A DNA stretch of 64,000 nt from Flavobacterium succinicans LMG 10402 (GTDB lineage Bacteria > Bacteroidota > Bacteroidia > Flavobacteriales > Flavobacteriaceae), in the NCBI RefSeq assembly GCF_000611675.1, contig NZ_JATV01000003.1, positions 1-64,000 on the forward strand. The letters are read 5' to 3'. Below the pieces are notes generated by a model, which was given only the letters and a program-made list of their open reading frames with translations, had not been told where the DNA came from and searched no databases. Positions 16,922 through 62,098 of the stretch are shown piece by piece; positions within the stretch are counted from its first letter, which is position 1; each line of letters opens with the position of its first letter. Both the position numbers and the translations under genes were made by a program.

Positions 16922-16967
16922 GGTGAATTTTTTCAAAAGCAAATATCTTGTGGTGCACTTAGTTTTA

Positions 16968-17045
16968 GCCCAGATGGGAACGGCATCCTTTTCTATTTTT
17001 CTTTAAAATAGAAAAGATACAGTGGACAGCTGGAAATAGCTCCTA
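16968..17045 (+). repeat. dispersed intergenic repeat, copy A
   Basis: The copy reads GCCCAGATGGGAACGGCATCC, then a 12-base inverted repeat CTTTTCTATTTT/AAAATAGAAAAG, then GATACAGTGGACAGCTGG. Copies B and C carry the same outer blocks (CGGCATCCTTT on one side, AAAGATAyAGyG on the other) around a variable hairpin. Confidence 0.8.
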
Positions 17046-19880: not shown

Positions 19881-19925
19881 TTGATAAGGAGCATAACGTT
19901 TCCTTTTCATCACAACGCCTCGTCC

Positions 19926-19994
19926 TGCTCTCCGCTATATCTTTGCTTTTTGAAAAAAAAAGCAAAGGATGCCGCTGCGATCAGGGCTCATAAA
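19926..19994 (-). repeat. dispersed intergenic repeat, copy B
   Basis: On the minus strand it reads AGCCCTGATCGCAGCGGCATCC, then TTTGCTTTTT...AAAAAGCAAA as hairpin arms, then GATATAGCGGAGAGCAGGACG. The outer blocks match copy A, and the hairpin arms match copy C (TTTGCTTTTTTT). It lies between convergent genes, about 45 bases after the LpxR-like gene. Confidence 0.8.
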
Positions 19995-50931: not shown

Positions 50932-51035
50932 AACAAAATCATTAAAATTCAATATCAAAAATACATTTGTGTTTCCTCAAAACCATTGTAAATTCCTCTT
51001 TTTAGAAGCAGTAGTATATGGTTTTAAAGAAAATA

Positions 51036-51103
51036 CCGTCCCGGTCTTCGCTATATCTTTGTCTAAAAAAAGCAAAGGATGCCGCTGCGATTGGGGCTAA
51101 TGT
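51036..51103 (-). repeat. dispersed intergenic repeat, copy C
   Basis: On the minus strand it reads AGCCCCAATCGCAGCGGCATCC, then TTTGCTTTTTTT and a partial opposite arm ACAAAGATATAGCG, then AAGACCGGGACGG. It matches copy B most closely. It sits between the second and third POT genes. Confidence 0.8.
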
Positions 51104-58352: not shown

Positions 58353-59603
58353 TTACAATCCGAAAGCAGCTTTTACTTGGTCTACAAAATCTAATTTTTC
58401 CCAAGTAAACAAATCTACAGTAACGGTTTTTGTTAATCCGCCTGGAGCAGAGAACGTTTTGGTTACGGTTTCTGGAGTACGTCCCATATGTCCGTAAGCC
58501 GCTGTTTCGCTATAAATAGGGTTTCTTAATTTCAATCGTTGTTCGATGAAGTATGGACGCATATCAAAAATTTCTTCAACTTTCTTAGCGATTTCACCGT
58601 TAGTCAAATTCACTTTTGAAGTTCCGTAAGTTTCGATGAAAATCCCCATTGGTTTAGCTACACCAATCGCGTAAGAGACTTGTACTAAAATTTCGTCAGC
58701 TACACCAGCAGCTACTAAATTTTTAGCAATATGACGAGTTGCATAAGCCGCACTACGGTCTACTTTACTTGGGTCTTTTCCTGAGAAAGCACCACCACCG
58801 TGAGCGCCTTTTCCACCGTAAGTGTCTACAATGATTTTTCTTCCAGTTAAACCAGTATCGCCGTGAGGTCCTCCAATAACGAATTTTCCTGTTGGGTTGA
58901 TGTGGTATTGGATTTTATCATTGAACAAATGAGCGTGCTCTGGATTTTTAACGATAATTCTAGGAATCAAAATATCAACTATATCTTTTTTGATTTTAGC
59001 TAACATAGCAGTTTCTTCATCGAAATCGTCATGTTGTGTAGAGATCACAATCGCATCGATACGAGTTGGTTTGTTATCATCGCTGTATTCTAAAGTTACT
59101 TGAGACTTAGCATCAGGACGCAAATAGGTGATTTCATTATTTTCGCGTCTCAATATTGCTAATTCTTGTAGCAATTTGTGCGATAAATCTAGTGCCAATG
59201 GCATGTAGTTTTCGGTTTCATTGGTAGCGTAACCAAACATCATTCCTTGGTCACCCGCTCCTTGCTCTTCCTTGCTAGCTCTATCAACTCCTTGATTAAT
59301 ATCAGCTGATTGTTCGTGAATAGCCGAAAGAATACCACAAGAATTGGCTTCAAACATGTATTCGCTTTTAGTGTATCCAATCTTACGAATTACTTCACGA
59401 GCAATTTGTTGTACATCTAAGTACGTATTTGATTTTACTTCACCAGCCAAAATTACTTGACCTGTAGTTACTAAAGTTTCACATGCTACTTTGGAGTCTG
59501 CATCAAAAGCTAAAAAGTTATCAATTAATGCGTCTGAAATTTGATCAGCAACTTTGTCTGGATGTCCTTCACTTACAGACTCTGACGTAAATAAATAAGC
59601 CAT
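58353..59603 (-). CDS. metK: S-adenosylmethionine synthetase
   Basis: The 416-residue enzyme makes SAM from methionine and ATP. Hallmarks are [34 protein letters not shown] (the flexible-loop region precedes it), [20 protein letters not shown] and [19 protein letters not shown]. Upstream, on the same strand, lies a long leader (59604-59775) with a promoter box, a candidate SAM-II-type riboswitch and a terminator-like hairpin, described separately. Confidence 0.97.
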
Positions 59604-59650
59604 AATAATTTGTATTTTAATAAATTAAGCGAGAAAAGTGAGATTGCTTG

Positions 59651-59682
59651 AAAAAACTAAAGGGGGAGTGTTCCTGCTTTAG
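59651..59682 (-). terminator. terminator-like hairpin in the metK leader
   Basis: On the minus strand CTAAAG (59682-59677) pairs with CTTTAG (59662-59657), with a further GGA/TCC inner stem, and six T follow (59656-59651). The 5' arm overlaps the 3' pseudoknot strand of the candidate SAM-II element, so the two structures exclude each other. Confidence 0.6.
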
Positions 59683-59768
59683 CATTTTTTTTATACCGAA
59701 ATAAGTATCAGTATTCATAATGAATGGTTCATTATGAAGAGGTTGCAATCAGTTCAAATTTTTCCTCT
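59673..59768 (-). promoter_or_regulatory. candidate SAM-II riboswitch with long loop, upstream of metK
   Basis: On the minus strand, P1 is AGAGG (59768-59764) with CCTCT (59742-59738). The P1 loop carries AAATTT, then GAACTGA, then TTGCAA, the same order as UGAUUU-...-UUGCAA in the classical metA (SAM-II) RNA. The 3' part AATGCTAAAGCAGG matches the conserved AAUG..GCUAAA..GG tail, and GCA of TTGCA can pair with TGC of this tail, CTG with CAG. Between them two extra hairpins occur: a perfect 11-base inverted repeat (59714-59724 with 59728-59738) and TACTGATA/TTTCGGTA (59694-59713). SAM-II forms with enlarged loops are, to my recollection, known in Bacteroidota. The fit is by eye only. Confidence 0.65.
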
Positions 59769-59779
59769 GTATTCGGGCG

Positions 59780-59787
59780 CAAAGGTA
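59780..59787 (-). promoter_or_regulatory. -7 promoter box for metK
   Basis: On the minus strand TACCTTTG matches TAnnTTTG. Transcription would begin a few bases before the candidate SAM-II element, leaving a leader of about 170 bases. Confidence 0.65.
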
Positions 59788-59908
59788 TGAAACCATTTTT
59801 AATTTCAAATTAATCTTTACTTTTTTTTAAAACTTGTTAGGTTTGTGTTGCTCTGGAGGTCAATTTGTTAGTTTTGCAGTAAACGCTTCTTAAAACTTTG
59901 TAAAATGT

Positions 59909-59939
59909 TTTGCGGTTTGAAAAAAACATTGCACATTTG
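59909..59939 (+). promoter_or_regulatory. possible promoter of the metY leader
   Basis: TTTG at 59909-59912 and CACATTTG at 59932-59939 are separated by 19 bases and approximate the Bacteroidota -33/-7 pair (the TA of the -7 box is CA). Confidence 0.4.
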
Positions 59940-59960
59940 TGAAAACAAAAAACAAATAAA

Positions 59961-60035
59961 ATGAATTTAGTCTCTTGTAAAATGATGAAAGCCATTCAGG
60001 ATCATTCCTGCGGGTTGCCTATTGCACGTATTTAA
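59961..60035 (+). CDS. leader peptide 1 (Cys/Met codons), upstream of metY
   Basis: This 24-codon ORF reads MNLVSCKMMKAI followed by QDHSCGLPIARI and stop. It has two Cys and two adjacent internal Met codons and is followed 18 bases later by a strong intrinsic terminator. Codons TGC GGG of the ORF contain GCGGG (60010-60014), which can pair with CCCGC (60062-60066) in the left arm and loop of the terminator, a possible antiterminator exposed when a ribosome stalls earlier. This layout suggests attenuation; translation is not shown. Confidence 0.55.
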   Translation: MNLVSCKMMKAIQDHSCGLPIARI

Positions 60036-60053
60036 ACTCATTCAAAATATAGC

Positions 60054-60086
60054 AAAAGCCTCCCGCCAAAAACGGGAGGCTTTTTT
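60054..60086 (+). terminator. terminator 1 in the metY leader (attenuator)
   Basis: AAAAGCCTCCCG (60054-60065) pairs perfectly with CGGGAGGCTTTT (60073-60084) and ends in T. It lies 18 bases after leader ORF 1 and before any full gene, as expected for an attenuator. Confidence 0.85.
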
Positions 60087-60124
60087 ATTTATACAAAAAA
60101 AATAATAATTAAAATTTGAATCTT

Positions 60125-60220
60125 ATGAAACAGATCATCCAACAACAGTCCAAATCTCTAAATGTCAAGTCTATTAAGAATGCCAAGGCAATGGTTATGT
60201 GTATGATTGAGATGTGCTGA
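60125..60220 (+). CDS. leader peptide 2 (Met/Cys-rich end), upstream of metY
   Basis: This 31-codon ORF begins MKQIIQQQSKSLNV and ends AMVMCMIEMC directly before TGA: four Met and two Cys among the last ten residues. A second intrinsic terminator begins 31 bases downstream, and metY, which makes homocysteine or methionine precursors, starts at 60329. Clustered codons for the pathway product just before the stop are the hallmark of ribosome-mediated attenuation. I could not find an obvious antiterminator for this second unit by eye. Confidence 0.65.
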   Translation: MKQIIQQQSKSLNVKSIKNAKAMVMCMIEMC

Positions 60221-60251
60221 TTCTGAAAGTAAGTTTATAAATAATTTTTTT

Positions 60252-60287
60252 AAACCCTTTTGGAACTATTTCTAAAAGGGTTTTTTG
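60252..60287 (+). terminator. terminator 2 in the metY leader (attenuator)
   Basis: AAACCCTTTT (60252-60261) pairs with AAAAGGGTTT (60274-60283), followed by T, 43 bases before the metY ATG. Confidence 0.8.
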
Positions 60288-60328
60288 TTACCAAAACGAT
60301 TAAAAATACAATTAAAAAAAATTAAAAA

Positions 60329-61609
60329 ATGAGTACTACTAAATTCGCCACCAAGGCACTACATACAGGACACGATACGACTAAGACTGCTGGAACACGT
60401 GCGGTTCCTATTTTTCAAACCAGTTCTTATGTTTTTAATAATTCTGAACACGCTTCTAATTTATTCAGTTTGTCAGAAGCGGGGTTTATTTACACTCGAT
60501 TGAATAACCCAACAAATGATATTTTAGAACAACGTTTAGCAGCGTTGGAAGGAGGTATTGGAGCTGTAGTTACCGCATCGGGTACAGCTGCAATAGCTAC
60601 AACTTTATTGGTACTCTTAAAAGCTGGGGATCATATTGTAGCTTCCAACAGTTTGTATGGAGGGACATATAATCTTTTGAGTGTGACTTTGCCAAGACTT
60701 GGAATTACTACGACTTTCGTTGATCCATCGGAAGCGGTGAATTTTACTAAAGCCGCTACAGAAAATACGAAAGTCTTTTTTGCCGAATCGTTAGGGAATC
60801 CAAAATTAGATGTTTTGGATCTAAAAGCTATTGTAGTTGAGGCTCAATCGCTTAAAATTCCTTTCATCGTGGATAACACTGTTCCTTCTCCTTATTTGCT
60901 CAATCCGATTGAGTTTGGCGCGAATATTGTAATTCACTCTTTAACGAAATACATTTCTGGAAATGGAACTTCGTTGGGAGGTGTAATTATAGATGCTGGA
61001 ACTTTTGACTGGAGCAGCGGAAAGTTTCCTGAGTTTACAGAACCTTCTGCAGGCTATCACGGTTTAGTGTATCACGAAGCGTTAGGGAATGCTGCTTTTA
61101 TCGCCAAAGTTCGTATCGAAGGATTACGAGATTACGGAGCAGCACTGAGTCCGTTCAATGCTTTTCAAATCATTCAAGGCCTAGAAACTTTGCCCATCCG
61201 AGTCCAGAAGCACAGCGAAAACGCCTTGGCCTTGGCCCAATGGTTAGAGCAAGAAGATGCCGTTGCTTGGGTCAATTATCCAGGTTTGTCCTCGAGTAAA
61301 TATTACGATTTGGTAACGCGCTATTTACCTAATGGTCAGAGTGGTATCGTAACTTTCGGACTCAAAGGAGGATTCGAAGCAGCGAAAAAAGTAGCCGATG
61401 AAACGAAGCTTTTTTCACTCTTGGCCAACATTGGAGATACGAAGTCGTTAATCATTCATCCAGCGAGTACCACACATCAACAATTGTCCGATGAAGACCA
61501 AGTAACAACAGGAGTGACCAAAGATTTGATTCGACTCTCGGTCGGATTAGAAGACATAGAAGATTTAAAAGCCGATTTAAAAGCTGTGTTCGATAGCTTT
61601 TCAGATTAA
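60329..61609 (+). CDS. metY: O-acetylhomoserine sulfhydrylase (aminocarboxypropyltransferase)
   Basis: The 426-residue PLP enzyme converts O-acetylhomoserine and sulfide to homocysteine. The Cys/Met-metabolism fold is clear: RAVPIFQTSSYVFNN, YTRLNNPTNDILEQRLAALEGG, ASGTAAIATTLLVL, ESLGNPKLDVLDL, and the PLP Lys in SLTKYISGNGTSLGG. The MetY-type segment FSLLANIGDTKSLIIHPASTTH is present. It stands behind two Met/Cys leader ORFs with terminators and before metX, which makes its substrate. Confidence 0.95.
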   Translation: MSTTKFATKALHTGHDTTKTAGTRAVPIFQTSSYVFNNSEHASNLFSLSEAGFIYTRLNNPTNDILEQRLAALEGGIGAVVTASGTAAIATTLLVLLKAGDHIVASNSLYGGTYNLLSVTLPRLGITTTFVDPSEAVNFTKAATENTKVFFAESLGNPKLDVLDLKAIVVEAQSLKIPFIVDNTVPSPYLLNPIEFGANIVIHSLTKYISGNGTSLGGVIIDAGTFDWSSGKFPEFTEPSAGYHGLVYHEALGNAAFIAKVRIEGLRDYGAALSPFNAFQIIQGLETLPIRVQKHSENALALAQWLEQEDAVAWVNYPGLSSSKYYDLVTRYLPNGQSGIVTFGLKGGFEAAKKVADETKLFSLLANIGDTKSLIIHPASTTHQQLSDEDQVTTGVTKDLIRLSVGLEDIEDLKADLKAVFDSFSD

Positions 61610-61639: not shown

Positions 61640-61849
61640 ATGATAACAAATATAACCTTCCGCACAATAGTTTCTTTCTTTAGTAGAAAAAACATCAAAA
61701 ACAAAATAGAAAAAGTAGACCAAACCGTACACGAGTTGATTCATCCACGTTTTATCATGGATAAATCAGAAGAAACAGTAAACAAAGATGCCAAAAAATC
61801 AATGTTGTTTCATATGTATTCTAACGAAAACGATACGCTTTTCATTTAA
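61640..61849 (+). CDS. small protein of unknown function between metY and metX
   Basis: The 69-residue ORF begins 30 bases after the metY stop and is followed by a good terminator. It has a basic N-terminal part (FFSRKNIKNKIEKVDQTVHEL) and an acidic C-terminus (MYSNENDTLFI). I recognise no domain; no signal or membrane helix is clear. Its position before the terminator suggests cotranscription with metY. Confidence 0.5.
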   Translation: MITNITFRTIVSFFSRKNIKNKIEKVDQTVHELIHPRFIMDKSEETVNKDAKKSMLFHMYSNENDTLFI

Positions 61850-61918: not shown

Positions 61919-61983
61919 AAAATTTGCGTGTTAAAAAAATAAATAGTTACTTTGCAGCTTTAAGTTCACAAACGTATTGAAAT

Positions 61984-62084
61984 GTTATAAAGAAAGGCGG
62001 AGGGATTAGACCCAATGAAGCCTTAGCAACCCTTCGGAAATCGAAGAAGGTGCTACATTCTATTCGCCTAGCGAAAAAGATAAC
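61984..62084 (+). promoter_or_regulatory. SAM-I (S-box) riboswitch upstream of metX
   Basis: The conserved S-box core is clear: AAGAAAGGCGGAGGGA, then ATGAAGCCTTAGCAACCC, then GAAGGTGCTACATTC, with P1 GTTAT (61984-61988) closing with ATAAC (62080-62084). It binds SAM to turn off methionine genes. A short CTAGT/ACTAG hairpin followed by five T (62099-62117) just downstream could be the expression platform, though the stem is short. Confidence 0.92.
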
Positions 62085-62098
62085 GCAACAAAATACCT

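Follow-up and report, generated by a model that had tools for sequence, protein, structure and literature searches.

Two leader units with methionine and cysteine codons before metY of Flavobacterium succinicans: predicted tandem transcription attenuators conserved in the genus

The metY gene of Flavobacterium succinicans LMG 10402 is preceded by two complete leader units, and from comparison with related genomes it is very likely that these are two ribosome-mediated Met/Cys transcription attenuators which control metY in series. Each unit is composed of a short leader ORF containing a run of codons for amino acids of the pathway of the downstream gene, an intrinsic terminator after the ORF, and an antiterminator which is exclusive of the terminator and whose pairing is conserved. 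Ribosome-mediated attenuation had been proposed in an earlier note on this DNA, and this reading is now supported by the conservation of its parts and by the recurrence of the units before other Met/Cys genes. The whole stretch of DNA analysed, referred to here as the window, comprises 64,000 nt (contig NZ_JATV01000003.1, positions 1 to 64,000).

The gene order in the window is metK on the minus strand, a 0.7-kb intergenic region, and on the plus strand metY, a 69-aa ORF and a metX-like gene. The genes and RNA elements of the locus are the following:

58353-59603, minus strand: metK, which passes the NCBIfam cut-off
59669-59773, minus strand: SAM-II (long loop) before metK, at the Rfam gathering score (RF01726 tested)
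59909-59939, plus strand: candidate promoter seen in the sequence, composed of TTTG (59909-59912), 19 nt and CACATTTG (59932-59939)
59961-60035, plus strand: leader ORF 1, 24 codons, translation MNLVSCKMMKAIQDHSCGLPIARI and stop, with Cys and Met control codons (SCKMM), conserved in relatives
59997-60010, plus strand: small hairpin CAGGA/TCCTG (region 1:2), located past the control codons of unit 1, from covariation in 72 sequences
60010-60014, plus strand: GCGGG, antiterminator strand (region 2) of unit 1 within ORF 1, able to pair with CCCGC at 60062-60066
60054-60084, plus strand: intrinsic terminator of unit 1 (regions 3 and 4), by pattern scan, 18 nt after stop 1
60125-60220, plus strand: leader ORF 2, 31 codons, translation MKQIIQQQSKSLNVKSIKNAKAMVMCMIEMC and stop, the final residues being AMVMCMIEMC
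60221-60229, plus strand: TTCTGAAAG, antiterminator strand of unit 2, directly after stop 2, able to pair with CTTTTGGAA at 60257-60265
60252-60283, plus strand: intrinsic terminator of unit 2, by pattern scan, 31 nt after stop 2
60329-61609, plus strand: metY, O-acetylhomoserine sulfhydrylase (homocysteine synthase), the gene under predicted control (NCBIfam TIGR01326, 621 bits versus a cut-off of 495)
61640-61849, plus strand: 69-aa ORF ending in KSMLFHMYSNENDTLFI, 30 nt after metY
61982-62086, plus strand: SAM-I before metX, at the Rfam gathering score (RF00162 tested)
from 62158, plus strand: metX-like gene, whose best NCBIfam families are MetX but below their cut-offs

Both ORFs lie where the earlier note had placed them, ahead of a homocysteine-forming gene which NCBIfam identifies as metY, and translation bears out the dense run of Met and Cys codons at the end of ORF 2. 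The candidate promoter resembles the Bacteroidota promoter type TTTG/TAnnTTTG, and deviates from the TAnnTTTG consensus at the first base. With the SAM-II of metK on one side of the metY leader and the SAM-I of metX on the other, three apparently different RNA sensors of one pathway are found within 2.5 kb. The 69-aa ORF has no Pfam family above its cut-off and probably shares the operon with metY. ORFs resembling it (ending LLFxMYSxENETLFI or LLFQMYDLEEEDLFV) are present between leaders and metY or metX in relatives, and the ORF behind metY could encode a small protein of the methionine regulon that has escaped annotation.

A pattern scan of both strands of 59500-60800 detects five terminator-like sites versus a shuffle mean of 0.6, and the strongest on the plus strand are the terminators of unit 1 and unit 2. 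The terminators had been described as lying within 20-35 bases of their ORFs; both are present, and the distance holds for unit 2 (31 nt) and is somewhat shorter in unit 1 (18 nt). The pairing of GCGGG with CCCGC of terminator 1, earlier suggested as a plausible antiterminator, is possible and covaries in relatives. Unit 2 has an antiterminator which is absent from the earlier note, the duplex of TTCTGAAAG and CTTTTGGAA, with nine positions of which two are G-U. When folded up to the 3' arm of the terminator, the window sequence adopts the antiterminator (-16.0 kcal/mol for unit 1 and -9.2 kcal/mol for unit 2), and when the full stretch is folded it adopts the terminator (-29.2 and -19.1 kcal/mol, respectively).

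Of 150 genomes of the genus, 84 have a MetY match at E <= 1e-100, and the upstream DNA of 86 loci was examined. A strict unit is an ORF of 12-60 codons which starts with ATG, has no fewer than three Met/Cys codons beyond the start and no less than 15% Met/Cys, and is followed by a terminator no more than 60 nt past the stop. Such units are present within 700 nt of metY in 79 of the 86 loci (37 with two, 42 with one, 7 with none). The same definition is satisfied by 0/258 dinucleotide-preserving shuffles, 0/86 reverse complements and 1/82 stretches further upstream, and since the shuffles and reverse complements yield none, a chance origin of the units is excluded. One locus without a strict unit, L042, has one by a looser definition. 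Among 80 named records, nearly all Flavobacterium, 27 have two units, 47 one and 6 none; the closest of these is F. succinicans DD5b, whose MetY is 98% identical. The two samples overlap, and taken together (L006-L171) they comprise 146 distinct 400-nt upstream sequences; within 1000 nt, two units are present in 58 of these, a single unit in 76 and no unit in 12. The earlier note had made its reading depend on conservation of the ORF codons and terminators. As established by sequence comparison, leader ORFs, in-frame control codons, terminators and covarying antiterminators are conserved, with compensatory changes, as are the order of the units and their recurrence at Met/Cys genes.

Outside the genus the units are rare. 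They are found in 9 of 88 loci of the family sample (L172, a repeat of this genus, being left out), in 4 of 16 loci of the order sample, including L261 which is of this genus, and in 1 of 22 loci of the phylum sample, L277, likewise of this genus. Three loci of the same order but outside the family (L267, L268, L270) carry other short Met-rich ORFs with terminators before metY, e.g. MNYLNMYMRMLMPRLT up to its stop, which are possibly independent or older Met attenuators.

The arrangement of two units in series, claimed for the window, is confirmed there and in 37 of the 86 genus loci and is not universal, 42 loci having one unit and 7 none. For the counts of tandems, types and cysH loci a looser unit definition was used, the shuffle control applying to the strict definition only, and unit types were assigned by terminator sequence. 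By this looser definition units are present in 170 of 293 loci and two units in 81; their order is type 1 then type 2 in 80 loci, with a median of 108 nt from stop 1 to start 2, and type 1 twice in L267. F. soyangense (L096) and F. psychrotolerans (L097) are two species that carry both units. Loci with a single unit have either type 1 only (34) or type 2 only (55), and a relaxed look for the missing partner up to 1500 nt upstream, less DNA being available for several loci, recovered it in 1 of 89 (L075). An exact TAnnTTTG is present no more than 90 nt upstream of unit 1 in 18 of 70 distinct two-unit loci, versus 4.4 expected from mononucleotide shuffles, and absent there in the other 52; in the last 90 nt before unit 2 it is present in 1 of 70, versus 2.4 expected. 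Since only unit 1 is preceded by an enrichment of the motif, the two units probably share a single transcript.

The occurrence of single units of either type, and a unit 1 which appears degraded in L099 (F. psychrophilum), could be taken to mean that only one unit is functional in the window organism and that the other is a decaying copy. This is unlikely, since both units of the window keep ORF, control codons, terminator and antiterminator, and since the two closest relatives of the genus sample (L007, L008) retain both units with base changes.

In nearly every one of the units listed, the 5' arm of the terminator has a complementary strand, located either where the ORF ends or just past the stop. 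Examples are GCAGAGG with CCTCTGC and TGTGGG with CCCACA for unit 1, and TTACCAAAAG with CTTTTGGTAA and TTTCCAAAAG with CTTTTGGAAA for unit 2; in some divergent loci (L085, L086, L088-L090) the best match is shorter, with 5-6 pairs. Cognate duplexes are more stable than partner-swapped ones, both for unit 1 (-12.05 versus -9.77 kcal/mol, 99 distinct) and for unit 2 (-12.15 versus -10.89 kcal/mol, 103 distinct), and in each case 0/5000 permutations are as good.

Covariation was analysed in two alignments. Alignment A2 of unit 1 holds 72 of 78 selected sequences, six rows (L099, L107, two of L267, L268 and L270) being left out because they looked degraded or were hard to align, while alignment A1 of unit 2 holds all 60 selected sequences. 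The terminators covary, with double changes in 7/9 consensus pairs of unit 1 and 7/12 of unit 2. The antiterminator columns of unit 1 have 95.1% of cells paired, 23 double-change cells and a covariation of 0.248, those of unit 2 90.7%, 18 and 0.204, and each of these values is reached by 0/500 shuffles. A weaker measure is how many pairs show a double change, a value matched by 45/500 shuffles for unit 1 and 150/500 for unit 2; further pair types are matched by 3/500 and 97/500, respectively. In slid antiterminator alignments, in which the relatedness of the sequences is kept, the paired cells do not exceed 64.6% for unit 1 and 66.7% for unit 2, and unit 1 slid by +2 still shows 19 double-change cells.

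The small hairpin of unit 1 has double changes in all six pairs, with 69.7% of cells paired in the 72 sequences. Its covariation score and double-change cells are matched by 0/500 shuffles and its further pair types by 438/500; the register is loose, since a slide of -1 still gives 66.0% and 0.175 versus 0.208. In the window fold it forms together with the antiterminator (-19.7), the two not being mutually exclusive, and it could be a pausing hairpin. A pause hairpin proposed from the sequence for unit 2 is not supported, its double-change cells being matched by 121/500 shuffles.

Control codons are concentrated in the reading frame of the leader ORFs. The fraction of Met/Cys codons is 0.234 in frame versus 0.102 and 0.052 in the other frames for unit 1 (91 distinct peptides), and 0.364 versus 0.103 and 0.024 for unit 2 (104 distinct peptides), a comparison which is partly true by construction because the peptides were chosen for Met/Cys; the shuffle control is free of this. 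Leader peptides in the genus span from MNFTMCNMCMMMWNNPQRKPIA to MIFNTNTMMMAMMMMNMMMFTTPYCLKSTS, each up to its stop. Several more divergent loci (L083, L084, L086, L088-L090) have codon runs of nearly pure Met, so that Met looks like the constant signal.

Being very Met/Cys-rich and conserved, the leader peptides might themselves be the active products, acting by nascent-chain arrest or as metal-binding peptides rather than through stalling at the codon level. This is very unlikely. The part past the control codons shifts in frame and sequence (PQR, SAE and SCG endings) while the RNA pairing is kept, and the order and number of M and C vary among the runs. The GCAGAG motif of unit 1 is read in two frames, in 36 and 21 of 94 distinct leaders (8 are without the motif forms sought), and is therefore kept as RNA and not as peptide. 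Among the identified targets, moreover, Met/Cys biosynthesis genes predominate, and one is a TonB receptor.

The best-known regulators of methionine genes are SAM-sensing riboswitches. In the family sample 59 of 71 loci scanned (of 89) have a same-strand SAM-I located 85-282 nt ahead of metY; nine of the 71 have leader units, without SAM-I directly before metY; the SAM-I of L173 is downstream of metY. Three scanned loci have neither SAM-I nor units (L175, L220, L234), and in L234 a SAM-II match is found just upstream of metY. The probability of this exclusion by chance is 3e-9 if loci are assumed to be independent, which they are not, so the value serves as a guide only. SAM-I in the relatives and the leader units have the same gene, the same place and presumably the same output; SAM-I differs in sensing SAM by an aptamer, and it is absent before metY in the window. 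These sequences suggest that SAM sensing has been replaced by charged-tRNA sensing at metY.

It could be argued from the SAM-I of the relatives, and from the SAM-I before metX and the SAM-II before metK in the window, that the RNA of the metY leader itself senses a metabolite, as a SAM or Met riboswitch, and that the ORFs are incidental. This reading is highly improbable and was rejected as a candidate, no Rfam match covering the leader: 59909-60328 has no Rfam family at the gathering score, the SAM riboswitches (RF00162, RF01726) included. Against it are also the enrichment of Met/Cys codons in one frame only, the RNAalifold consensus structure, which is composed of the terminators only, the further pairings tested being the antiterminators and the short hairpin, and the absence of SAM-I immediately ahead of metY in all nine family loci scanned that carry units. 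T-box and Bacteroid-trp (RF01692) have no match in the window at the Rfam gathering score. That the leader is made of two unrelated short ORFs and terminators with no regulation has a negligible probability, since, common as short ORFs are in A+T-rich intergenic DNA, the idea is refuted by the conservation, the covarying cognate antiterminators and the in-frame Met/Cys enrichment.

In the mechanism which we infer for tandem attenuation, RNA polymerase would start upstream of unit 1, at one promoter shared by both units, and a ribosome would translate each nascent leader ORF. With Met-tRNA and Cys-tRNA well charged the ribosome would reach the stop, its footprint lying over region 2; with region 2 covered the terminator would form, and transcription would stop in the cell, first at unit 1 and then a second time at unit 2. 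With poorly charged tRNAs the ribosome would lag on the Met/Cys codons, the free region 2 would capture the 5' arm of the terminator, and the polymerase would continue. Full transcription of metY would need antitermination at both units, and the two responses should multiply. As predicted from the sequences, the paired units probably switch metY on when the cell is short of Met or Cys.

The spacing of the parts bears on this mechanism. With the usual footprint, a ribosome at the stop should cover region 2 and one stalled early in the codon run should not. In 113 of 116 rows of unit 1, the start of region 2 has a median distance of 12 nt from the last Met/Cys codon ahead of it and of 21 nt to the end of the stop codon. 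In unit 2 the medians are 3 nt from the last Met/Cys codon to region 2 and 12 nt from region 2 to the stop end (135 rows), and of 103 distinct units 83 have region 2 within the ORF, 17 have it past the stop and in 3 it spans the stop. Because the median gap is only 3 nt, a ribosome stalled on the final codon of unit 2 would cover region 2, and only the earlier Met/Cys codons of this unit appear to suit a stalling that frees region 2.

To survey other genes, covariance models of both units were searched in 61 genomes of the genus, and 20 regions with strong matches were examined. Matches were obtained in 59/61 and 57/61 genomes, weak ones included, of which four were examined, and these are not counts of true units. 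The weak matches L423 (in the own genome of the window organism), L425 and L426 (E 2e-6 to 4e-5) have no leader unit on either strand, and the weak match L424 (E 1.9e-8) held a true pair.

The strong matches include several other loci of the pathway. By the finder, metX-thrA is preceded by a pair in L334 and by one unit in L333; this thrA passes the NCBIfam cut-off, and metX is the best family of its gene but below the cut-off. L338 and L376, which are one locus, have unit(s) before a 67-aa ORF followed by SAM-I and metX. L335 has unit(s) before cysH-cysD-cysN and a serine O-acetyltransferase gene (cysE), behind which lies a cysK-like ORF truncated at the locus end, and also before a cystathionine-synthase-like gene. 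In L339 unit(s) precede a hom-like ORF, which is followed by a SAM-I match and a metH-like ORF. In four loci (L323, L324, L326, L327) the two units are 3.2-3.3 kb apart, with unit 1 upstream and a 948-aa ORF between them; this ORF is a TonB-dependent receptor (NCBIfam) in L327, and in these loci unit 1 alone might control an outer-membrane transporter. In the cluster of L325 metY is present twice, both copies having a tandem pair of their own, and MetX-like ORFs lie between and after them.

The cysH loci, 30 best matches of one search and 20 of another, were analysed by the looser definition, and nine of these 50 have a unit (L343-L350, L355), seven of the nine having two. The ratio of Met to Cys is 41:51 before cysH (15 peptides, L343-L350) versus 864:653 before metY (Fisher p = 0.02, the sequences being related). 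Leaders of cysH are strongly Cys-biased in L343, L346 and L350 and overall only mildly richer in Cys, and Cys is on this account less sure than Met as a sensed signal. The cysH of the window organism itself (L403) has no leader unit by the finder.

These data could be brought together in a two-stage, charged-tRNA-sensing regulon for sulphur amino acids in Flavobacterium, a picture for which belief and doubt are about evenly balanced. The module would have taken metY over from an ancestral SAM-I, spread to metX-thrA, to the hom-like and metH-like ORFs and to cysH-cysD-cysN-cysE in relatives, with a retuned mix of Met and Cys codons, and would respond multiplicatively and more steeply than a single attenuator. 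One bacterial group appears to sense charged tRNA where its relatives sense a metabolite at the same gene, and many of its members have retained both attenuators complete and in the same order. This raises the questions why there are two serial stages, whether the codon mix sets the amino acid sensed, as in the metY versus cysH leaders, and how evolution replaces a riboswitch.

Leaders of the ribosome-mediated type are known for trp, his, leu, thr, phe and ilv. The metY leader shares with these a leader ORF with control codons, an antiterminator alternating with a terminator and a cognate biosynthetic gene, and differs in its Met/Cys codons, its two complete serial units and its Bacteroidota host. 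Polycysteine ORFs of mycobacteria were reportedly described by Canestrari in 2020. Bacteroid-trp (RF01692) is likewise a described amino-acid leader RNA of Bacteroidota, but for tryptophan; it has an Rfam match in one relative, L348.

For the general model of ribosome-mediated amino-acid attenuators see PMC1183508. The precedent for tandem attenuators is Salmonella mgtCBR, whose units sense ATP and proline charging (PMC3641672); there too the leader has two short ORFs, each acting on transcription, which for metY is predicted, but the signals are different, and in the present case Met and Cys codons are found in both units, ahead of genes for sulphur amino acids. Parts of PMC1262725 describe cysteine leader peptides for Mycobacterium, Propionibacterium and Bifidobacterium, the Mycobacterium cys leaders being without a conserved terminator hairpin, and the same parts give no RNA element for methionine operons of Actinobacteria; a passage of PMC8632094 places uORFC-8-2 before cysS in Rhodobacterales. 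As far as these excerpts go, the Flavobacterium units are similar in being short ORFs with Cys codons, there before cysteine genes, and differ in having more Met than Cys codons, clear intrinsic terminators and often a paired arrangement. For amino-acid operons of F. psychrophilum, passages of PMC9723704 report "strong clues" of upstream attenuation by leader peptides, with pheA and hisG among the conserved elements. A search of the full-text literature, with most subscription journals outside its scope, brought up neither a Met leader nor a tandem Met/Cys leader described for Bacteroidota, nor a published account of leader-peptide attenuation by Met codons, and such leaders are not described in the passages concerned of PMC2965389, PMC7366714, PMC8632094, PMC2864571 and PMC13236596.

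Elsewhere in the window three matches to Flavo-1 RNA are present, at 16963-17040 on the plus strand and at 19917-19992 and 51033-51102 on the minus strand.
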